Source: Lautropia mirabilis (GTDB lineage: Bacteria; Pseudomonadota; Gammaproteobacteria; Burkholderiales; Burkholderiaceae_E). Taken from it: 64,000 bases of DNA. Below the pieces are notes generated by a model. It was not told where the DNA came from and did no database searches. It saw only the letters and a program-made list of their open reading frames with translations. Shown piece after piece: positions 22,234 through 34,173 of this stretch; the stretch's first letter is position 1; every line of letters starts with the position of its first letter. Where the stretch lies: NCBI RefSeq assembly GCF_900637555.1, contig NZ_LR134378.1:3074784-3138783 (forward strand). The letters run 5' to 3'. A program made the position numbers and the translations under genes.

Positions 22234-23052
22234 GTGACACTGGCCTTTGGAGATCTGCAAGGCTGCCGCCAGCCGCTGGAACAACTGCTGAAGAAAATCG
22301 GTGCCGCCCCCACCGAACCGCTCTGGTTCTGCGGCGACCTGGTCAACCGCGGCCCCGACTCCCTGGGCACCCTGCGCCAGATCCGCCAACTGGGCCTGCG
22401 CGCCCGCACCGTCCTAGGCAACCACGACCTGCACCTGCTGGCCCAGTACGCCGGCATCCGCACCCCGCGTCCCGGCGACACCCTGGAACCCATCCTGCGC
22501 GCCCCCGACGCCCCCGAACTCATCGACTGGCTGCGCACCCGCCCCCTGGCCCTGCGCCAGGGCGACTTCCTCATGGTGCACGCCGGCCTGTTCCCCGAAT
22601 GGGAATTCGAACAGGCCCGCGACTTGGCCCACGAAGTGGAAAAAGTCCTGAGCGGCCCCCACTGGCAGGACTTCCTGGCCGTCATGTACGGCAACACCCC
22701 CGACCGCTGGAGCGACAGCCTGCGCGGCGACGACCGCCTGCGCTGCATCGTCAACGGCCTCACCCGCCTGCGCTACCTGCACGCCGACGGCCGCATGGAC
22801 TTCAAATGCACCGAAGCCCCGGCCTATGCCCCCGAAGGGCTCATCCCCTGGTTCCAGGCCCCTAACCGCCGTTCCGCCGGCCGCCCCATCATCTTCGGCC
22901 ACTGGTCATCCCTGGGCCTGAGACTGCAACCCGACCTCATCGCCTTGGACACCGGTTGCGTCTGGGGCGGCAGCCTCACCGCCATCCGCCTGGAAAACCG
23001 CCACGTCTTCCAGCAGCCCTGCCCGGGGCGAAAACGCGGCGGGAAGGACTGA
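22234..23052 (+). CDS. apaH: Symmetrical bis(5'-nucleosyl)-tetraphosphatase
   Basis: A 272-residue metallophosphatase that hydrolyses Ap4A to two ADP. Metal-site motifs are in order: FGDLQGC, CGDLVNRGPDSL, LGNHDLHLL, HAGLFPEW, and FGHWSSLGL near the end. The GTG at 22234 is preferred: GGGGG lies upstream and family length (about 270-280) is met. It follows the WbpM-like gene by 16 bp, so it may be co-transcribed with it. It is the last core gene before the accessory island. Confidence 0.94.
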   Translation: MTLAFGDLQGCRQPLEQLLKKIGAAPTEPLWFCGDLVNRGPDSLGTLRQIRQLGLRARTVLGNHDLHLLAQYAGIRTPRPGDTLEPILRAPDAPELIDWLRTRPLALRQGDFLMVHAGLFPEWEFEQARDLAHEVEKVLSGPHWQDFLAVMYGNTPDRWSDSLRGDDRLRCIVNGLTRLRYLHADGRMDFKCTEAPAYAPEGLIPWFQAPNRRSAGRPIIFGHWSSLGLRLQPDLIALDTGCVWGGSLTAIRLENRHVFQQPCPGRKRGGKD

Positions 23053-23360
23053 CGCATGGACGCGGGCGCGCACACTCGCGCGCCCCATCACGGCAGGCTG
23101 CCTTACGGGCAGCCCATGACAACGCCTCTGCCCTGCAGGCTGCTGAAGCTCGCAGCTGCCTGATCACTCAAGCCAGGCGCGACAAACTCCCTGCCAACGC
23201 CGCCTTGCGGCAGCCTTCGTCGCTGCCGCACGACAGACCGCGCCCCTCGCCCTGCTGCGACTGATGCTTTTTGGCCGAAACATCTGGCACCACCCAAGGT
23301 CAAGAATATGATTCCTCCATGGTCCATCTTGTGCAATACGTTGCACCCTGGAGACGCAAC
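23053..23360. other. Intergenic region after apaH with two perfect hairpins
   Basis: 308 bases without a credible gene. GGGCGCGC-N6-GCGCGCCC (23064-23085) and GGCTGCC-N5-GGCAGCC (23096-23114) are adjacent perfect stem-loops just past the apaH stop; they probably terminate or stabilise the upstream mRNA although T-tracts are absent. The rest must hold the promoter of the lipoprotein gene. Base composition becomes more AT-rich towards 23300. Confidence 0.45.
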
Positions 23361-24593
23361 ATGGCATCCAGACATCCCCATATCCTTCGCACTACCTGCA
23401 ACGCCACCGCACTAAGCGTGATGCTCGCCGCCTGCGGCGGCGGTGGCGGCAGCGAACGGGACAAAGCCGTATCCGCCAGCCCCGTAGCCCCCACGCCGAC
23501 GCAGAACATCGTCGCCACCGCCCCCTCCACGCCCTCGGTCACCACGCCACAGAACAACCCTGCACCCACTGGCCAGGTGAACACGCCTGCCGTTGGACAG
23601 CCCAACTCTGTACAGCCGGCACCCACCGTACCGCAGAACCAGACAACCAATCTGCCCCCGACCACGCTTGCCCCGACGCAGCCGGTGGCACAGGCAGATA
23701 CCAAGCCTGCCCCCACGCCGACGCCGACTCCAACTCCGGAACCCAAGACGGTGCCCAGCATCAGCAACACGGGCGTTCGTGGGGACGTGTTGTTGGCGAT
23801 GATTGAACAGAACTATTGCCAGACAAGAGCCTACGCAAGCCAGTCATTTGACAAGCCATATCTGGAAAAGCAGAAACCTCTGGGGATTGCGAAAGTACGC
23901 ATATCCGCTGCACTTTCATCAAATAACTACATCGACGACCCGAATCGTCTCTGGGTCAGAGCCCCAATTTACGACTCATATGGTCTATGTAGCCGGCGCT
24001 ACTATCACGCCACGCCCCCCGGAACTTACGTCTACAAGGTTACAAGCGAAAGCGAATATACGCGCTTTCGCAACCCCTCCATGTACGGCGAACCTTGGCT
24101 AACCCGCGGCTTCAATACGATGGAGATTAGTTACACAATCAACATCCGTGAGGACAGTTTTGAAATCGGTCCTTCCGTCAGCGGCTATGCTGCAGTGGAC
24201 CTCGGATACCAAGCAACGGACAGGGATACACCTCCTCCATCAGGGGGCGGAACATCCCTTCCTATGGGGGGCCATAGAACGAACATCACCAGAAGTCAGG
24301 AGGTTCCTTATGGCGTGATCAACACCTGGAGCCAAGGTCTTCAACTGATACTGATAAAAGGCGACCGGAACGACGAAGCAAAGATCTGCACAAGTTTAAA
24401 TTCACCCCAGGTCAAACGACTGCAATGCACAGTCTGGCACGTTCCATCAGACTGGAAGTGGGGACAGGAACTCAAAGACCCCGAGTCATACGTTGTGGAT
24501 GACCGATCTGTCTATCCAAACGAAAGTGGCCTGATGTACTGGCGTAGCTATCAGGGACCATACGTACAGGATCTGGACGATCTATACAGCTGA
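23361..24593 (+). CDS. Predicted lipoprotein of unknown function with Pro/Thr linker
   Basis: A 410-residue protein I do not recognise. Residues 1-26 are a lipoprotein signal peptide ending in a lipobox (LAAC), followed by five Gly. Residues 30-135 are a low-complexity Pro/Thr/Ala/Gln linker ending in PTPTPTPTPEPK. The remaining 270 residues form a Tyr-rich, probably globular domain with cysteines near residues 150, 210, 340 and 355. Start 23361 has GGAGA upstream; an in-frame ATG at 23271 would bury the signal peptide. The C-terminal half is AT-richer with codon use unlike neighbours, suggesting transfer. Confidence 0.75.
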   Translation: MASRHPHILRTTCNATALSVMLAACGGGGGSERDKAVSASPVAPTPTQNIVATAPSTPSVTTPQNNPAPTGQVNTPAVGQPNSVQPAPTVPQNQTTNLPPTTLAPTQPVAQADTKPAPTPTPTPTPEPKTVPSISNTGVRGDVLLAMIEQNYCQTRAYASQSFDKPYLEKQKPLGIAKVRISAALSSNNYIDDPNRLWVRAPIYDSYGLCSRRYYHATPPGTYVYKVTSESEYTRFRNPSMYGEPWLTRGFNTMEISYTINIREDSFEIGPSVSGYAAVDLGYQATDRDTPPPSGGGTSLPMGGHRTNITRSQEVPYGVINTWSQGLQLILIKGDRNDEAKICTSLNSPQVKRLQCTVWHVPSDWKWGQELKDPESYVVDDRSVYPNESGLMYWRSYQGPYVQDLDDLYS

Positions 24594-24605
24594 TCGAGCC
24601 GTCCC

Positions 24606-24643
24606 GGGTTGCAAGAACAGATTTCGGCTGTTTCTTGCAACCC
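24606..24643 (+). terminator. Strong stem-loop after the lipoprotein gene
   Basis: GGGTTGCAAGAACAG pairs with CTG-T-TTCTTGCAACCC in a 15-bp stem with one bulged T and a 7-nt loop, starting 12 bp after the stop codon. There is no following T-run, so termination may be imperfect. Confidence 0.6.
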
Positions 24644-24713
24644 ACAACGATTAAAGCCCATAAAATGGCCAACAGCCGACAATACTCTATTACGTATAGA
24701 ACTATAACCTGTG

Positions 24714-24732
24714 ATACGCTATAGCGTATAAT
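24714..24732 (+). promoter_or_regulatory. hipBA promoter: 16-bp palindrome overlapping a -10 box
   Basis: ATACGCTATAGCGTAT (24714-24729) is a perfect 16-bp palindrome. A consensus TATAAT (24727-24732) overlaps its right end, 27 bp before the hipB start. A related degenerate half (CTATTACGTATAG, about 24687-24699) lies upstream. HipB-type antitoxins repress their own operon, so this is probably the HipB operator. Confidence 0.75.
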
Positions 24733-24758
24733 TTAAGCACTCCCACGCCAGCCACACC

Positions 24759-25136
24759 ATGTCCACCCCACGCTCCCCCCACAACGCTGACGTACTGGCC
24801 CACCTGGGCCAGCAGCTGCGCCAAATACGTGAAGCCGCCGGCCGCAGCCAGGGCGGCCTGCGCCACTACCGCCAAGGCCAGCCACGCCCCCTGCGCCAGG
24901 CCACTGTCTCGCACATCGAGAACGGCCACGACGTGACCCTGGACAGCTTCATCAGCTACGTGTCGGCACTGGGCCTGGAAATTGCTCTCGTCCCCGTCGG
25001 CCAGGCCGCCCTCATCCAGCAGAACCTGCGTGGCCGAGGCAGACTGCCGCCTCAGAACCCGGCCCATGAGCCAGACGAGGACTTCGGCCCGATGGACCTG
25101 ATGACTCGCTACGCCTATCTGGCGGATCCCGAATGA
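24759..25136 (+). CDS. hipB: HipB-like antitoxin, XRE-family DNA-binding protein
   Basis: A 125-residue protein with a Cro/CI-type helix-turn-helix at about residues 14-62 (LGQQLRQIREAAGRSQ, then QATVSHIENG). The position before hipA and a 4-bp ATGA overlap with it (25133-25136) identify it as the antitoxin that binds the HipA kinase and represses the operon. The HTH loop is longer than in E. coli HipB by an Arg/Gly-rich insert, and the C-terminal 40 residues are Pro/Asp-rich. Confidence 0.88.
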   Translation: MSTPRSPHNADVLAHLGQQLRQIREAAGRSQGGLRHYRQGQPRPLRQATVSHIENGHDVTLDSFISYVSALGLEIALVPVGQAALIQQNLRGRGRLPPQNPAHEPDEDFGPMDLMTRYAYLADPE

Positions 25137-26476
25137 AAGCGCCGCGCACCCTGGGCGTGTGGCTGTCAGATACCCTCGTCGGCTACCTGACCCATTACCC
25201 GGACGAACGGACCGTCTTCAGCGTCAGCGAGGAGTATCTGGACGCTGGCCCCGCTCGGCCAATCCTCTCGCTGGCATGGACCCATCCGGACGATGAAGCC
25301 CAGACACGCCGCCTGCTGCTGGACCCGCGCCACAAGTCGGCTTCCATCAAGGCGCCGCCCTTCTTCTCCAACCTGCTGCCCGAAGGCGGCATGCGCGCGC
25401 GCATCGCCCAGCAGCTGAAAGTCCACGAAGACCGCGAGTTCCTGCTGCTGGAAGCACTGGGCCATGACCTGCCGGGAGCCGTCATCCTGCGGCCAGTTAA
25501 CGCGCCGCCGCCGGGGCACAAGAATCACGCAACACAAGCCGGCGCGCTCCCCATCAATGCCGATACAGCCGACGATGGCGCACCTCAGACAGCAGGTTCC
25601 ACCCACCTGAAATTCTCGCTGGGCGGCATGCAGCTCAAATTCTCCATGCTGCGGCAGGGAGAACGCTACACCCTCAATACCGGCGGTCGGCTGGGCAATT
25701 ACATCATCAAGCCCCCTTCCCACGATTTTCCCGGCCTGCCGCAAGTGGAAGCCGCCGCCATGGCCACCGCCCGCGCCGTAGGCATCGACGTACCCGAAAC
25801 CCTGCTGCTGCACCCCGACCAACTGGAAGGCCTTTCCAATATTCTGGGCCATCTACCCGACGAACCCTTCTACGCCATTCGTCGCTTCGATCGGAACGAC
25901 ACCTCCCGCCCACAAAACGACAGCGACGCGCCCCTTTCCCTTAAGGAACGCATCCACGTTGAAGACTTCGTCCAGGTATTCAGCCTGCGCACCAGCCAGA
26001 AATACAACCGCGTCAACTACGACATGATGGCGATGACGCTGCTGCAATACGCCGGCGGCATCGATGACCTGAAGGAGATGACCCGCCGCCTGGTGCTCAA
26101 CGTCCTGCTGGGCAACGGAGACGCCCACATCAAGAACTGGTCGCTCATCTACCGTACCCCCAACAAACCCCGACTGGCTCCCGCCTACGACCTGGTATCC
26201 ACCGTCGCCTGGACCCAGCACGACCAGACCATCGCCCTCAACATGGCAGGCACCAAGCGCTTTGATGCCATCGGGCTGGATACCTTCAACGCCTTCTTCC
26301 AGCGCTTGGGGCTACCAGGGCAGGTTCGGGAAGAACTGCTTGCGGAAGTGTGTACCACAACGCGCCGGATACTGGATGTTTGGGGCAAGCGCTATGAAGA
26401 TCACGGCGTGCCGGCAGGGCTGATGCAGCGCGTGGAGGTACATATACGGGGGTGCCCGTTGCGAGACGCTGTCTAA
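25133..26476 (+). CDS. hipA: HipA-family serine/threonine kinase toxin
   Basis: A 447-residue kinase. In E. coli HipA phosphorylates glutamyl-tRNA synthetase and induces persistence. An N-terminal subdomain (LGVWLSDTLVGYL, FFSNLLPEG) precedes the P-loop-like SLGGMQLKFSM near residue 160 and NYIIKPP near 187. The catalytic loop is LLGNGDAHIKNWSL near 320, and the metal site is LAPAYDLVST near 343. All key residues are present, so an active kinase is likely. Codon use is GC-rich like the core, unlike the reverse transcriptase unit that follows. The gap to the downstream promoter at 26535 is only 58 bp. Confidence 0.92.
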   Translation: MKAPRTLGVWLSDTLVGYLTHYPDERTVFSVSEEYLDAGPARPILSLAWTHPDDEAQTRRLLLDPRHKSASIKAPPFFSNLLPEGGMRARIAQQLKVHEDREFLLLEALGHDLPGAVILRPVNAPPPGHKNHATQAGALPINADTADDGAPQTAGSTHLKFSLGGMQLKFSMLRQGERYTLNTGGRLGNYIIKPPSHDFPGLPQVEAAAMATARAVGIDVPETLLLHPDQLEGLSNILGHLPDEPFYAIRRFDRNDTSRPQNDSDAPLSLKERIHVEDFVQVFSLRTSQKYNRVNYDMMAMTLLQYAGGIDDLKEMTRRLVLNVLLGNGDAHIKNWSLIYRTPNKPRLAPAYDLVSTVAWTQHDQTIALNMAGTKRFDAIGLDTFNAFFQRLGLPGQVREELLAEVCTTTRRILDVWGKRYEDHGVPAGLMQRVEVHIRGCPLRDAV

Positions 26477-26534
26477 AAACAACAACCATCACAAGCACAA
26501 AACCAACAATGCGAACCTATAACACAACAAAAAT

Positions 26535-26562
26535 TAGACAAATCTCTAAAAACATCTAGAAT
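26535..26562 (+). promoter_or_regulatory. Promoter for the retron-like RNA
   Basis: TAGACA (26535-26540, 5/6 to the -35 consensus) and TAGAAT (26557-26562, 5/6 to the -10 consensus) are 16 bp apart in AT-rich DNA. Transcription would start near 26569. This separates the RNA/RT unit from hipBA, although read-through from hipA is possible. Confidence 0.6.
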
Positions 26563-26568
26563 CGGTGC

Positions 26569-26899
26569 GTGGTTAGAAAAAGGAGATGTTGTAGTAGCAA
26601 ATTGAGCGCGAAAGTGCTTGTGGGGACCTCGGTCTCTAACTTCGCCTAGCAGGCCTCTCGCTGCCGATCCGAGGACGCGCGACGACCGACGATCCATGCG
26701 TACAGTCTGTGAAGCGAGACATAGCCGCACTTACGACAGGTAAGCGGCGGTTGGATGGGGGTAAGAATCTTGCAGTTTCTCCTGTCACACATATACCCAA
26801 ATGACGCGACAGCGACGGTAATTGTGCCGTCGGTCTTTGGAGATTTTTTATGTGTGACCAATCTAGCCTCAACTGCAAGAAGGATAGCCAGACTAACAC
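26569..26899 (+). ncRNA. Putative retron msr-msd non-coding RNA
   Basis: This non-coding stretch ahead of the reverse transcriptase folds strongly on the same strand. 26768-26777 pairs with 26871-26880 (10 bp, perfect). Inside, 26784-26793 pairs with 26849-26858 (10 bp, perfect). Deeper, CCAAA/TTTGG and CGACGG/CCGTCG pair. Together this is a 113-nt msd-like hairpin. Upstream hairpins, msr-like, lie at 26605-26618 (GAAA loop), 26627-26674 and 26724-26748. AGC at 26723-26725, directly at the last one, could hold the branching G. Candidate a1/a2 pairs are short: 26704-26709 with 26889-26894, or 26569-26576 with 26893-26899. Ends are approximate. Confidence 0.65.
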
Positions 26900-27060
26900 T
26901 AGTCGAGCTCGGTGTGAAACGATCACCACAAAGCTGAAGCAAATTTCGTTCAGCCAGGTGCTTCACGCAATTCAAGCTTTCTATAGGCTTGCAAAAATAG
27001 CTCACTGGATCCAAGACTGGCTTTCCTAACCCCCTCCATTAAAAGAAAGAGAAGAACAAC

Positions 27061-28029
27061 ATGATCTCGAAAAAACAATACAACAAAGATCAATCACCTC
27101 TTTATTCGATCAAATCCAAAAGGAGGCTTGCGCGCATACTTGAAACAGATGCAAAAACTATCATTCGCCTCGCATCAGACACAAGCAAGCACTATAAGTT
27201 ATGGGAGACAAAACAAAAACCTAGAGATAAGATTTGCAACATCACCCACACACCAAGAAAAATCCAGGAGCCCAAAGAAGACCTTCTCAAGATTCACAAA
27301 AAAATAGCAAAATTCCTTTCTAGAATCAAGAAGGAAGAATTTGTCTATTCTGCGACGAAAGGCCGCTCTTACTTAAACAATGCTGAGTTCCACAAAGACA
27401 GAATCCACGAACCATCATTCAAAGTAGATATAGAAAAATTCTATCCATCCGTAAAAATTAAGAAAGTACATAACTTCTTCCAAAATGAGATGAAGTGCGC
27501 CCCCGACATTGCTAGACTCCTGGCAAAAATATGCTGCATCCACGGCGCACTCCCTACCGGAAGCCCAATCAGCCCGACCCTATCGTACTTCGCTTGCAAG
27601 GACATGTTTTCATGGATAGGAAACCTCGCAAGAAGCAATAACCTCTGTTTTTCTCTTTATGTCGACGACATGTTCTTTTCTGGAGAGGCAGCCTCCCAAG
27701 AGCTTAGAAATAAGGTCATCACGCACCTCAAAAAAAACGATCTGCGCGGACACAAAATCTCGCATTTCTCCGCCAATAAAACCCGAGTTATAACAGGAGT
27801 CGCCATTACTCCGAAAGGGCTTCGAATAACAAATAAGAGACATAAGAAAATAAGAATATATAGCAACGCATTCTTCAGATCAAAATCTCCTGACAATATT
27901 CAAACCCTCGGAAAGACACTGCTCGGCCAATACCGAGAAGCGTCGAGGGTAGAACCCCATCTTCTACAACGCACCGGAAAAGTACAAAGTCGCATGGACC
28001 TGTTCAAAGACAAATCTCAGAACATGTAG
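27061..28029 (+). CDS. Retron-type reverse transcriptase
   Basis: A 322-residue RNA-directed DNA polymerase with no added domain. It carries NAEFH (107-111), matching the retron NAxxH motif. Catalytic Asp in FKVDIEKFYPSV is D123. The LPTGSPISP block is at 164-172. YVDD at 200-203 is the active site. RVITGV at 242-247 corresponds to the retron VTG motif. In retrons the RT copies msd RNA into msDNA linked to the RNA, and this controls a toxic effector in phage defence. AT-rich codon use unlike neighbours shows transfer. A weak GA-rich RBS precedes the ATG. Its end overlaps plsC by 26 bp. No effector gene follows. Confidence 0.9.
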   Translation: MISKKQYNKDQSPLYSIKSKRRLARILETDAKTIIRLASDTSKHYKLWETKQKPRDKICNITHTPRKIQEPKEDLLKIHKKIAKFLSRIKKEEFVYSATKGRSYLNNAEFHKDRIHEPSFKVDIEKFYPSVKIKKVHNFFQNEMKCAPDIARLLAKICCIHGALPTGSPISPTLSYFACKDMFSWIGNLARSNNLCFSLYVDDMFFSGEAASQELRNKVITHLKKNDLRGHKISHFSANKTRVITGVAITPKGLRITNKRHKKIRIYSNAFFRSKSPDNIQTLGKTLLGQYREASRVEPHLLQRTGKVQSRMDLFKDKSQNM

Positions 28030-28789
28030 CCAGCCATACCATCGGATATGGCCCTCCGCAACCTCTCCCCCACCTCCCGCCGTTCCCTCCCCCCGAGGGA
28101 ACGGCATCCAACACCACCACCCGAACCACCAGCCCCTTCGCCCCCACCACGGCCCACAGCGACTGCATGAACGTCGTCTCGTCCAGGTAGTACGCCTCCA
28201 CGCCCGGGGTGCCGTCGGTGTGCAGGTATTTCAGGCCCACGGGCACGATCTCGGCTTCTTCGTCGATGGCGGCCTGCAGCAGGTTGCCGTGGAAGGGTTT
28301 CAGTTCCGGTCCGGCGTTGGTGGTGCCTTCAGGGAAAAGCGCCACCGGAAAGCCGGTGCGCAGGCGTTCGCGCATCTGGCGCAGCACGTCGGGGACGGCG
28401 CGGCGGTTACCCCGCGCGATGTAGACGGTGCCGGCCAGGCTCACCAGCCAGCCAATGACGGGCCAGCGTTTTATTTCGGCCTTGGCCACGAAGGCCGAGG
28501 TGGCCAGGGAGTTGATGGCAAAGATGTCCAGCCACGAGACGTGGTTGGCCACCAGCAGGCGGCCGGGGGCCAGTTCGGCCAATGTGCGGGGCCGGGCGGG
28601 GTCGCCGGCCCAGGTTTCCTGCACTTTCACGCCGCAGATGCGCATCAGCAGGCACGACCACCAGCGGATGAGGACGCGCCTGCCCTGCTGAGGCAGCCAG
28701 GGCTGCATCAGCGCCAGTCCCACCAGGCCCGCTACCAGCAGCAGCGTCAGCAGGGGCAGACGCGCCGCACGGCGCAGGGCGGGGATCAC
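28004..28789 (-). CDS. plsC: 1-acyl-sn-glycerol-3-phosphate acyltransferase
   Basis: A 261-residue membrane acyltransferase that makes phosphatidic acid. A hydrophobic N-terminus (residues 10-32) is followed by VANHVSWLDIF (the HX4D catalytic motif) near residue 80 and LFPEGTTNAG near 153. From about residue 230 the sequence becomes Gly/Arg-rich and then ends in residues read antisense to the reverse transcriptase 3' end. The native C-terminus therefore appears replaced or extended by the island junction. Its start overlaps the pyrC' stop by 4 bp (28786-28789), so it ends the ruvX-pyrR-pyrB-pyrC' series. Confidence 0.88.
   Translation of the reverse strand: MIPALRRAARLPLLTLLLVAGLVGLALMQPWLPQQGRRVLIRWWSCLLMRICGVKVQETWAGDPARPRTLAELAPGRLLVANHVSWLDIFAINSLATSAFVAKAEIKRWPVIGWLVSLAGTVYIARGNRRAVPDVLRQMRERLRTGFPVALFPEGTTNAGPELKPFHGNLLQAAIDEEAEIVPVGLKYLHTDGTPGVEAYYLDETTFMQSLWAVVGAKGLVVRVVVLDAVPSGGGNGGRWGRGCGGPYPMVWLATCSEICL
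28079..28105. repeat. 11-bp inverted repeat at the plsC/retron junction
   Basis: GCCGTTCCCTC and GAGGGAACGGC are perfect 11-bp arms around a CCCCC loop, inside the aberrant C-terminal codons of plsC and about 50 bp from the reverse transcriptase stop. There is no T-tract. It may be a former terminator of the plsC operon or part of the recombination site. Confidence 0.5.
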
Positions 28790-30135
28790 CGCGTGAAGAC
28801 CAGGCGGCCGCCCACGGCGGTAAGGCGCACGCGGCCCTGCACTTCACGGCCCAGCCACGGGGTGTCGGTGCATTGGCCCCACAGGGTTTTCTCGTTCACC
28901 ACCCACGATTCTTCGGGGTCGAAGACGCACAGGTCAGCCCGGGCGCCGACGGAAAGGCCGGCGGGCTCGTTCTTGCGGGCAGGGTCGATGCCGGCAATGC
29001 CGGCCGGGATGCGGGTGAGCCGATCCAGCACGGACACGAGGTTCAGGCCCTGTTCCTTGCCCCATTTCAGGGACAGGGGCAGCAGCAGCGACAGGCCCAC
29101 GGCACCCGGTTCGGCTTCGCCGAAGGGCAGGCGCTTGGCGTCTTCCACCACCGGCGTGTGGTCCGAGCAGATGGCGTCCAGCGTGCCGTCGGCCAGACCG
29201 GCGCGCAGGGCGTCACGGTCGCGCTGGGCGCGCAGCGGCGGCTCCAGCCGGTAGGCCGAGTCGAAGAAGCCCACATCGACATCGGTCAGGTGCAGGTGAT
29301 TGATGGCCACGTCGGCAGTGATGGGCAGGCCGGCCTTGCGGGCCTGGCGCACCAGCTCCACACCGGCGGCCGACGACAGGCGGCACAGGTGCACGGGGCA
29401 GCCCACCGAGGCCACCAGTTCGCAGATGGTGTGCAGCGCCACGGTCTCGCTGGTGACGGGGTTGCCGGGCAGCCCCAGCCGCGAGGCAAACGGCCCGGCG
29501 TGCATCACGCCGCCCCGCGACAGGAAGGGGTCGACGGGGTTCAGCCACACGGTGTAGCCGAAGGAATGGGCATACTGCATGGCGCGCAGCAGCACCTGGG
29601 TGTCCTGAATGGGCTGGCTGGCCTGGGCAAAGCCCACGCAGCCGGCGGCGGTCAGCTCGGCCATTTCGGTCAGCGCCTGGCCCTTCAGGCCCACGGTCAG
29701 GGCGCCCAGCGGGTACAGGTGCGCCAGTCCCAGGTTGTGGGCGCGGTATTTCAGCATTTCCACCAGGCCCGGCTCGTCCAGCGGCGGGTCGGTGTCGGGC
29801 GGGCATGCCAGCGCCGTCACGCCCCCGGCCACGGCGGCCTGCATCTCGGATTCCAGCGAGGCCTTGTATTCGAAGCCCGGCTCGCGCAGGCGGGCGGACA
29901 GGTCCACCAGTCCCGGCGACACCACCAGGCCCGTGCCGTCGATGGTCCGTGCCGGCCGGAAACCATGGGGCGCAGCGCCCACGGCGATGATGCGGCCATC
30001 GGCCACATGCAGGTCGGCCTGCATGTCCAGTTTCACCCAGGGGTCCACCAGGCGCGCGCCGGTGATGGAAAACGAGGCTTCATGCCCGCTGCGGCCTGCC
30101 TTGATCACACCTTCTTGCATCATGTTCTCCTTCAT
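28786..30135 (-). CDS. Dihydroorotase-like subunit without metal site (PyrC')
   Basis: A 449-residue amidohydrolase-fold protein. Active dihydroorotases have DxHxHLREPG; here the segment is [14 protein letters not shown], with both metal-binding His lost. Later motifs are partly kept ([15 protein letters not shown]). It is therefore probably the inactive PyrC' that forms a structural complex with PyrB, as in Pseudomonas, and a catalytic PyrC should be encoded elsewhere. Its start overlaps the pyrB stop by 4 bp (30132-30135). The closely spaced in-frame ATGs at the start leave the exact initiation codon open by a few residues. Confidence 0.9.
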
Positions 30136-32437: not shown

Positions 32438-33610
32438 ATGCAGATCGAATCCATCAAGATCCAGAACTATCGCACCTTCCGCCATGCACATCTGGATGGG
32501 CTGCCCAGGCTCGTGACGCTGGTCGGCGCCAATGGCACCGGCAAGAGCACCCTATTCGACGTCTTCTCCTTTCTGAAGGATGCGCTTGCCCATAATGTAG
32601 GCAAGGCCGTGGCCCGACGCGGGTCCATGCGGGAACTGCGCAGCCGCGACCAGCGGGGGCCCATCCGGATCGAGATCAAGTTCCGCGAGTCGGGCGGGCG
32701 CCTGGCCACCTATGAGCTGGCCTTCGACGAGCTGGATGGGCGGGTCGTCATTGAGCGCGAGGTCCTCAAGTACCGCCGCGGGCAGGAGGGAAGACCGTGG
32801 CACTTCGTCGACTTCCAACGGGGTACGGGAACGGCCATCACCAATGAATCCGCATATGGACTGGCTGGCACAGACGAACAGCGTGCCGTATTCGCGCTGG
32901 ACGAGCCAGATGTGTTGGCCATCAAGGGGCTAGGCCAGTTCAAGGAGTTCCGGGTCGTGGCCGAGTTCCGCAGCCTGATCGAGAACTGGCAGATCTCCGA
33001 TTTCCACATTGCCGACGCACGCCCCTCTACGGAAGAAGGCTTTGCCGAGCACCTGTCCACTCGGGGTGACAACCTGGCCCAGGTGGCCCAGTACCTGCAT
33101 CAATATCATCCGGAACGTTTCCAGGCCGTCCTGGAGGCCATGAAGCGTCGTGTCCCCGGCATCAGCCATATCGAAGCGAAATCCACGGAAGACGGCCGCC
33201 TGGTCCTGCGCTTTCAGGACGGGAAATTCCACGATCCCTTCATCGCCCGTTTCGTCTCCGACGGCACCATCAAGATGTTCGCCTACCTGGTCCTGTTGCA
33301 GGATCCCAGGCCGTTTCCGCTACTGGCCGTCGAGGAACCCGAGAACCAGCTCTATCCCGATCTGCTGCCGGAACTGGCCGAGGAATTCAGAAGCTATGCC
33401 CGTCGTGGTGGCCAGGTCTTCGTTTCCACGCACTCCCCAGATTTCCTGAACGCACTAAAGCTGGAAGAGATCTACTGTCTGAAGAAAGAAAACGGCTTCA
33501 CCACCATCACCCATGCCAGTGATTCGGCCAACCTGCAGGCACTGGTTGACGCCGGCGACCTGCCCGGCTATCTGTGGAAGCAAGGGGTCTTTGAAGGGCT
33601 GAACACGTGA
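32438..33610 (+). CDS. AAA ATPase (AAA_21, SMC/OLD-like), probable defence component
   Basis: A 390-residue ABC-type ATPase. QIESIKIQNYRTF and Walker A GANGTGKST (30-38) open the protein. The signature/Walker B region LLAVEEPENQLYPDLLPEL lies near residues 293-311, and the switch His is in FVSTHSPDFLNAL near 330. The middle region lacks a long coiled coil. Its start codon lies in a region with no upstream partner, and its stop overlaps the next gene (GTGA). ATPases of this kind paired with DUF4276 or TOPRIM proteins resemble OLD, PARIS and related anti-phage pairs. The trigger and target are unknown. Confidence 0.88.
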   Translation: MQIESIKIQNYRTFRHAHLDGLPRLVTLVGANGTGKSTLFDVFSFLKDALAHNVGKAVARRGSMRELRSRDQRGPIRIEIKFRESGGRLATYELAFDELDGRVVIEREVLKYRRGQEGRPWHFVDFQRGTGTAITNESAYGLAGTDEQRAVFALDEPDVLAIKGLGQFKEFRVVAEFRSLIENWQISDFHIADARPSTEEGFAEHLSTRGDNLAQVAQYLHQYHPERFQAVLEAMKRRVPGISHIEAKSTEDGRLVLRFQDGKFHDPFIARFVSDGTIKMFAYLVLLQDPRPFPLLAVEEPENQLYPDLLPELAEEFRSYARRGGQVFVSTHSPDFLNALKLEEIYCLKKENGFTTITHASDSANLQALVDAGDLPGYLWKQGVFEGLNT

Positions 33611-34173
33611 GCGGCCGCGTCATCTTCCTGCTGGAAGAACCTTCCATGAAGGTCATGCTGGCAGAATACCTGCCTCGTCTGGTCCCCGGATGGATACAGG
33701 GGCAGCACTTTCTTCTGCTCCCGCACCAAGGCAAGAGTGATCTCGACAAGAGCATTCCGATCAAGCTGAAAGCATGGCAGGAACCTGGTGCCCGCTTCGT
33801 CGTTGTCCGGGACAATGACAATGCCGATTGCCTTGCCCTGAAGGCACGGCTACAGACCATGTGCGCCACCAGTGGCCGCAAGACCCTGATACGCCTCGTC
33901 TGTCAGGAGCTGGAGTCCTGGTACCTGGCCGACCCCGACGCATTGATCGCAGCCTATCCAGAGGCCCAGAAGAAGATCCGGACCCTTGCCAAACGATTCC
34001 CCGACCCTGACGAGTGCCAAAAACCCTCGCACGAGCTTGAGCGGAACATCAAGGACTTCCAGAAGAACGAAGGAGCCCGGAGGCTGGGAAGGCTGCTGGA
34101 TGCAGACCGGGCAACGTCGCGTAGCCTGAAGGTCTTTGCACAAGGTGTCAGGATGTTGGCCGAACGTGCCTGA
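33607..34173 (+). CDS. DUF4276 (TOPRIM-like) protein, partner of the ATPase
   Basis: A 188-residue protein starting with GTG that overlaps the ATPase stop by 4 bp. VIFLLEEPS has the conserved Glu10/Glu11. VVVRDNDNADC at 66-75 gives a DxDxxD cluster (D69, D71, D74), as in TOPRIM metal sites. CQELESWYLADPDAL at 99-113 is the DUF4276 signature. The likely role is a metal-dependent nuclease or regulator controlled by the ATPase. That function is inferred from fold and gene pairing. It is slightly AT-richer than core genes. Confidence 0.85.
   Translation: MSGRVIFLLEEPSMKVMLAEYLPRLVPGWIQGQHFLLLPHQGKSDLDKSIPIKLKAWQEPGARFVVVRDNDNADCLALKARLQTMCATSGRKTLIRLVCQELESWYLADPDALIAAYPEAQKKIRTLAKRFPDPDECQKPSHELERNIKDFQKNEGARRLGRLLDADRATSRSLKVFAQGVRMLAERA

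Follow-up and report, generated by a model that had tools for sequence, protein, structure and literature searches.

Our analysis points to a compact type VI retron without the HTH gene of its clade in the window (by which we mean the whole 64,000-nucleotide stretch of Lautropia mirabilis DNA that was analysed). In this retron, translation of a toxic small open reading frame (ORF) would be held shut by a lock that depends on msDNA and that phage attack on the msDNA would release. We put the probability of this reading at roughly 45%. Comparison among related loci establishes, at the level of sequence, the kinship of the reverse transcriptase (RT), the gene order, a hairpin conserved in the leader of the small ORF, a segment of the retron RNA that is complementary to early small-ORF codons (X:X'), a short string that recurs in the msd loop and in the leader-hairpin bulge (L=L'), and the loss of both the HTH gene and a palindrome. 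The window itself displays all three couplings between the RNA and the small gene (the hairpin, X:X', and L=L'), which are weak evidence when this locus is taken alone. The features of the locus are collected in Table 1.

Table 1. Features of the retron locus and their basis, in window coordinates.
Feature	Position	Strand	Basis or remark
Promoter-like site TTAGAC-N17-TAGAAT	26534..26562	+	Sequence; consensus scan gives TAGACA-N16-TAGAAT, 10/12
a1 (AGGAGA), 5' end of candidate retron RNA	26581..26586	+	Exact complement of 26778-26783
Putative msr stem-loop 1	26603..26620	+	Inside covariance-model R2 hit 26576-26646
Putative msr stem-loop 2 (UGG...CUA-AC)	26621..26638	+	Recurs in relatives; covariance model
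Long imperfect hairpin, possible 5' part of msd	26641..26718	+	Fold only
Putative msd hairpin; apical loop motif L = CGACAG 26734-26739	26723..26752	+	Fold, family comparison
X (TCTTGCAGTT)	26768..26777	+	Complementary to small-ORF codons 26871-26880
a2 (TCTCCT)	26778..26783	+	Pairs with a1
GTCACACATA	26784..26793	+	Exact complement of 26849-26858 (TATGTGTGAC), covering the small-ORF start codon
Hairpin before small ORF	26796..26840	+	7-nt bulge GCGACAG 26806-26812 with L' CGACAG 26807-26812
Small ORF, 59 aa, candidate effector/toxin	26850..27029	+	Unannotated, 31 nt upstream of RT
X' inside small ORF (AACTGCAAGA)	26871..26880	+	Perfect 10-mer with X
Retron reverse transcriptase, type VI clade, 322 aa	27061..28029	+	ORF, motifs, profiles, tree

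The preliminary description of this DNA had called the 322-residue product a retron-type RT, with NAEFH from residue 107, YVDD from residue 200, and RVITGV from residue 242, all of which are present. In an alignment of the window RT with 29 relatives, N107, A108, H111, Y200, D202, D203, T245, and G246 are invariant; therefore, the motifs are not due to chance. The retron-type assignment is further borne out by profile and sequence matches. PADLOC returns RT_VI at 255 bits, with the next retron model at 137 bits, and the NCBIfam St85-family and other retron models match, all below their own cut-offs. In a sequence search against solved structures, the Ec86, Ec67, Ec83, and Kva2 retron RTs are among the 10 distinct chains matched. 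RVT_1 is the sole Pfam match, and the maturase/GIIM domain of group II intron RTs is absent from the window RT by the same scan. No DRT/Abi family cut-off was reached, the only such NCBIfam match at E ≤0.001 being Drt3a, with 37 bits against a cut-off of 200. Phylogenetic placement, which had been named as a way to check the assignment, nests the window RT inside the type VI clade. In a tree of 55 RTs, it falls among 48 type VI rows (support 100/99 against seven distant RTs) and is sister to four HTH-bearing loci (two Nevskia MAGs and two viral contigs; support 99/97); its branch is long (0.99, compared with a median end branch of 0.56). The NAxxH, YxDD, and VTG motifs together with the retron profile identify the protein as a retron RT, and the profile scores and the tree place it in the RT_VI clade.

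The relatives used for comparison were gathered by tblastn (84 plasmid and 17 phage records, six of which were opened), by pattern scans of viral and genome contigs (the genome-contig pattern being built from five closer rows), and from sampled genomes; single-sequence scans of genome contigs and viral contigs found no relative. The resulting 47 non-redundant relatives, with RTs 27-39% identical, give a comparison set of 48 loci including the window; four loci that turned up later lie outside this set. The family HTH lies just before the RT in 77 of 85 loci with an RT match. The eight loci without it are the window, four distant RTs below 90 bits, and L043, L044, and L088, which begin inside the RT match or at most 122 nt before it. 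Of the 78 loci whose RT match reaches 100 bits, 74 have the HTH and the others are the three cut loci and the window, so that the HTH precedes the RT in every one of the 74 relatives at this level that have upstream DNA (47 non-redundant). The HTHs of four relatives were scanned and match PADLOC HTH_VI at 105-121 bits. No HTH_VI partner was found upstream of the window RT, and the best HTH_VI match anywhere in the genome of the window scores 24.8 bits; at the limit of this search, all 14 control genomes give matches as well. Because the window RT is nested as sister to HTH-bearing loci, this absence is most simply explained by loss. Similarly, the palindrome TTCGC-N5-GCGAA, which 28 of the 47 relatives carry 220-480 nt upstream of the small ORF (0.02 expected from mononucleotide shuffles), was not found in the window. 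The palindrome may be the operator of the HTH, with which the loss of both would fit. Among the relatives, L002, L006, and L007 are type VI loci carried by phages (Peduoviridae and Mu-like), where genes for portal or head proteins lie nearby, and a distant RT_VI subgroup with the HTH (L056, L058, L059, and L061) carries a longer, different small ORF before the HTH (79-137 aa, longest frame).

The RT had also been described as solitary, with no effector and outside the usual RNA-RT-effector layout. This reading was rejected, since a candidate retron RNA and a small ORF lie directly upstream of the RT, and it is the HTH of the clade that is missing instead. Directly before the HTH (in the window, before the RT), each of the 48 non-redundant loci has a small ORF (43-67 aa) preceded by a Shine-Dalgarno (SD) sequence; this ORF thus stands before HTH-RT in 47/47 non-redundant relatives, a set chosen for having the HTH. 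Since the small ORF was chosen using SD, ATG, and composition, this regularity is partly built in. The ORF is annotated as a hypothetical protein in three of the six named records opened. Its position and composition, rather than sequence similarity, match the small partner protein of type VI retrons. The encoded products are basic, with a median net charge of +7 over the 48 loci, and their Kyte-Doolittle mean over 15 residues exceeds 1.0 in 43 of 48, the window peptide being less hydrophobic than most (0.96). The pN/pS of the small ORF is 0.34 over 55 close pairs, which are not independent because 52 of them belong to a single group, that of the Klebsiella phage locus L006. For the window peptide, no Pfam or PADLOC family match was found, and PHROGs gave only a 14.4-bit match.

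The candidate retron RNA spans about 26581-26783, before the small ORF. The promoter-like site preceding it is weak, given that the region holds two such sites against 1.6 expected. Two adjacent msr stem-loops recur in relatives, the automatic pick being off in several loci. A covariance model of the msr built from 19 relatives, without the window, has its best window hit over both stem-loops (15.1 bits, E 0.11 in 64 kb; next hit, 8.6 bits). When applied to 28 held-out loci, the model found 15 at E ≤5 (14 close to where they were expected) and missed 13. The a1 and a2 zones are more complementary in the family than permuted pairs are, with P of about 0.006 (294/50,000 with 39 loci and 332/50,000 with 25 loci). 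An Rfam search over 23000-30000 returned no retron family and only a chance CrcZ match.

The hairpin in the leader of the small ORF was modelled from 11 relatives, again without the window (model R3, in whose seed alignment three of the 11 rows were judged by eye to be one base off register in the outer stem). It gives a single window hit, at 26790-26855 (17.4 bits, E 0.41; 64 kb, E ≤10). Among the 47 relatives it finds 20 at E ≤1, 11 of those being seeds. Another model, R1, held the inner stem only and was left aside. In the alignment of these 20 sequences, which was built on the structure and is biased in its favour, the covariation score of the hairpin is 0.754, compared with 0.249 after shuffling and at most 0.218 after sliding, and pairing cells make up 83.9%, compared with 55.5 for shuffled and 50.2 for the best slid alignment. 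Two-sided changes occur at all 20 hairpin pairs, a state that 5/500 shuffles also reach. In a separate two-part hairpin search, 29 of the 48 loci, including the window, beat 30/30 mononucleotide shuffles. In the window, folding pairs the 3' arm with the first two bases of GGAG (26839-26842). The automatic parse has the 3' arm covering at least three SD bases in 19 of 48 loci; in the window the arm then stops just short of GGAG and covers no SD base. The energy needed to open the SD is as high in at most 5% of shuffles for 17 of 48 loci; in the window it is 3.8 kcal/mol, compared with 3.6 for shuffles, 32% of which are as high.

In many loci, the bulge of this hairpin repeats a short string of the apical loop of the putative msd hairpin. 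Over the 48 loci, the longest string common to the msd loop and the leader bulge averages 5.77 for a locus's own pair, compared with 4.25 for permuted pairs (0/50,000). Matches of at least 6 nt occur in 30 of 48 loci and shorter ones in the other 18, while 12% of mismatched pairs reach 6 nt. The signal peaks at the msd loop centre against leader position -46 (z 8.5; 9.9 with a variant scoring), whereas the reverse complement gives z of at most 1.5 and the reversed string up to 2.8; the other high cell in the position map is, by coordinates, the overlap of two search intervals. The flanks of the CGA core match as well, in the 35 of 48 loci with the core at both places (leader core chosen blind). 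The identity holds at RT identities below 60, 50, 45, and 40% (n = 36, 28, 21, and 12; 0/50,000 each) and also without the window (n = 27). Judged by eye on the tree, matched changes of L and L' have occurred several times, in L079 and L087 (G to A), L012 (GAGAG to GAAAG), L052 (GCGA to GTGA), and the L003 group (GGTGGA); changes on one side only are seen in L018, L065, L085, and L006 and, in the window, at the base that precedes CGACAG. A form of the comparison that took the longest common substring over wide zones picked an off-target CGCGAC in the window, and the hairpin-centred form was used instead.

The second coupling involves X, which lies just 3' of the msd hairpin. Complementarity of X to the early codons is 7.42 within a locus and 5.45 after permutation (0/50,000; 48 loci). 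It extends over at least 7 nt in 27 of 48 loci, mostly at +17 to +33 (codons about 6-13), with a peak z of 10.2 at -76 x +29, and it holds at RT identities below 60, 50, and 45% (0/50,000) and below 40% (n = 12; 34/50,000). In the window, TCTTGCAGTT:AACTGCAAGA and GTCACACATA:TATGTGTGAC are both perfect 10-mers. The relative L008 also has a complementary 10-mer over the ATG, and 10-mers are found in 0.7% of mismatched pairs. Since X is inside the a1:a2 span and X' is outside it, both helices together would form a pseudoknot.

To account for these couplings, we propose that a single transcript would carry the retron RNA, the small ORF, and the RT. The small ORF would encode a toxic peptide whose translation is blocked by RNA structure, i.e., by the hairpin at the ribosome-binding site and the X:X' helix with the early codons. 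In known retrons, reverse transcription starts next to a2. As X lies directly 5' of a2, it would be the earliest part to be copied and would no longer exist as RNA. Reverse transcription would in this way remove X, and the X:X' lock would give way to msDNA, the loop of which would be complementary to the bulge L'. Identical RNA segments can pair only through a cDNA, and msDNA is therefore probably an antisense DNA that acts on the toxin mRNA. We infer that this pairing of msDNA with mRNA represses. The lock would require intact msDNA, and a phage that destroys, modifies, or strips the msDNA would release toxin synthesis and halt the infected cell, which would amount to phage defence. Extended to the whole clade, for which we give it somewhat less than even odds, the proposal is that msDNA is an antisense DNA on the toxin mRNA leader, that the RNA lock (X:X') is swapped for a DNA lock, and that toxin synthesis hinges on msDNA integrity, with the window as the minimal form (RNA, peptide, and RT).

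The direction of control could also be the opposite, with reverse transcription turning the toxin on: X' would be freed once X is copied, and the anti-SD arm would be detached, opening translation, either by msDNA bound to the bulge or by RNase H cleaving the resulting hybrid. Both effects of reverse transcription would then act in one direction, an RNA-only lock would suffice at rest, and many type I toxin mRNAs are, according to PMC11228461, activated by processing. We nevertheless consider activation unlikely, given that a window without the HTH would be constitutively exposed and that the retrons described in PMC12548924, and Ec83 in PMC12948488, hold their effector off with RT-DNA. Ec86, which is activated through modified msDNA (PMC12948488), is the exception.

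Another account of the L=L' identity dispenses with DNA:RNA pairing. The msd loop and the hairpin bulge would each present the same binding site, recognised by the RT (or another protein), and the leader-bound RT would repress translation, an autoregulation by mimicry. Many copies do share a GNGA/CGA core typical of structured loops; however, the matching reaches beyond the core, other motifs match too (e.g., GGTGGA, CGAAGAC, CTGGT, and TGGCGTGA), and in L079, by our own reading, an A of the msd stem opposes a C yet matches the bulge. We hold such a protein reader to be unlikely. The HTH in particular is unlikely to read the elements of the retron RNA and leader because the window keeps them without it, and a motif pair read by the HTH was rejected. 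It is more doubtful still that the locus is a functionless remnant, a type VI-like retron that lost its HTH and whose other parts are drifting. The missing HTH and palindrome, the long RT branch, and the weak single-locus statistics are what such decay would leave, but the RT and the small ORF are open, the RT motif residues are kept, two 10-nt stretches perfectly complementary to the small ORF are present, and the hairpin motifs are retained.

For a long time it was not clear what msDNA does; in the retrons that have been studied more closely, its targets are effector proteins. In tripartite retron toxin-antitoxin systems, RT-msDNA serves as the antitoxin. The target in the tripartite systems is the effector protein, whereas the predicted target of the msDNA in the window is the mRNA of the effector. 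The window resembles these systems, as presented in PMC12548924, in that RT, candidate RNA, predicted msDNA, and candidate effector share one locus. With type I toxin-antitoxin pairs it has in common a small peptide, a leader that hides the ribosome-binding site, and long-range helices (timP/TimR, PMC11228461; tisB/IstR, PMC7708055), except that the type I antisense is an sRNA and that of the window would be DNA, made by the RT from the same transcript. DRT2 likewise joins an RT to a structured RNA controlling a toxic product (PMC12039810); unlike DRT2, the window gives no hint of a gene put together by reverse transcription and has a conventional small ORF. Type VI retrons consist of an RT, a DNA-binding protein, and small auxiliary proteins, according to PMC8541194. 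With this type (PADLOC RT_VI plus HTH_VI; Mestre et al. 2020, as cited in PMC8541194) the window shares RT clade, small protein gene, and operon order, along with a candidate upstream RNA, and it differs in having neither HTH_VI nor the palindrome. Among the matches listed, we found no title or abstract opening describing msDNA or leader elements that control the translation of a retron effector, most preprints and subscription papers lying outside this search. The match between msd loop and toxin leader amounts to a concrete base-pairing hypothesis that compensatory changes can decide, and the HTH-less window offers a small form suited to testing the antisense-DNA idea. If the proposal is true, type VI retrons would be, to our knowledge, the first known systems by which a cell produces antisense DNA of its own to gate a gene.

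With regard to its origin, the preliminary description had noted that the RT is AT-rich relative to its neighbours and concluded that it arrived by transfer. The composition agrees (GC 0.42 and GC3 0.47 for the RT, compared with 0.62/0.76 for HipA, 0.67/0.83 for plsC, and 0.70/0.88 for pyrC), and the low GC is common to the RT and the small ORF upstream (0.46), which had been overlooked. Transfer is further supported by the absence of the RT from congeners and by a congener plsC locus without it. The RT is single-copy in its own genome (one contig, 3.17 Mb) and was not found in 73 other genomes of the family, eight of them of the same genus (E ≤1e-20), or in 398 other genomes sampled from the order (E ≤1e-25). 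The statement that plsC follows at once needs amending: this gene runs towards the RT from the other strand, and their ORFs share 26 nt. In eight congeners, plsC homologues match only up to residue 234-239 of 261, and therefore the insertion probably cut into the 3' end of plsC; the sequence encoding the residues beyond (28004-28150) has no match in congeners and is the probable insertion junction. The congener whose plsC is closest (72% identity) has a homologue (38%) of the window's hyp440 adjoining plsC, and no HipA or RT match was found there within the 12.5 kb examined. In the window, hyp440 (23271-24593, 440 aa) has no Pfam match, and a second homologue (30%) lies near yqgF in another congener.

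Directly upstream of the retron is a pair of genes for an HTH protein and a HipA-like kinase (24759-26476), which has no match in the examined region of the closest congener. HipBA finds no support as a retron effector pair: its end lies 57 nt upstream of the promoter-like site, and HipA stands beside the RT in none of the six annotated relatives examined. A second candidate defence module, an AAA ATPase and DUF4276 pair (32438-34173; PADLOC HEC-01, 571 and 167 bits), lies 4 kb away.
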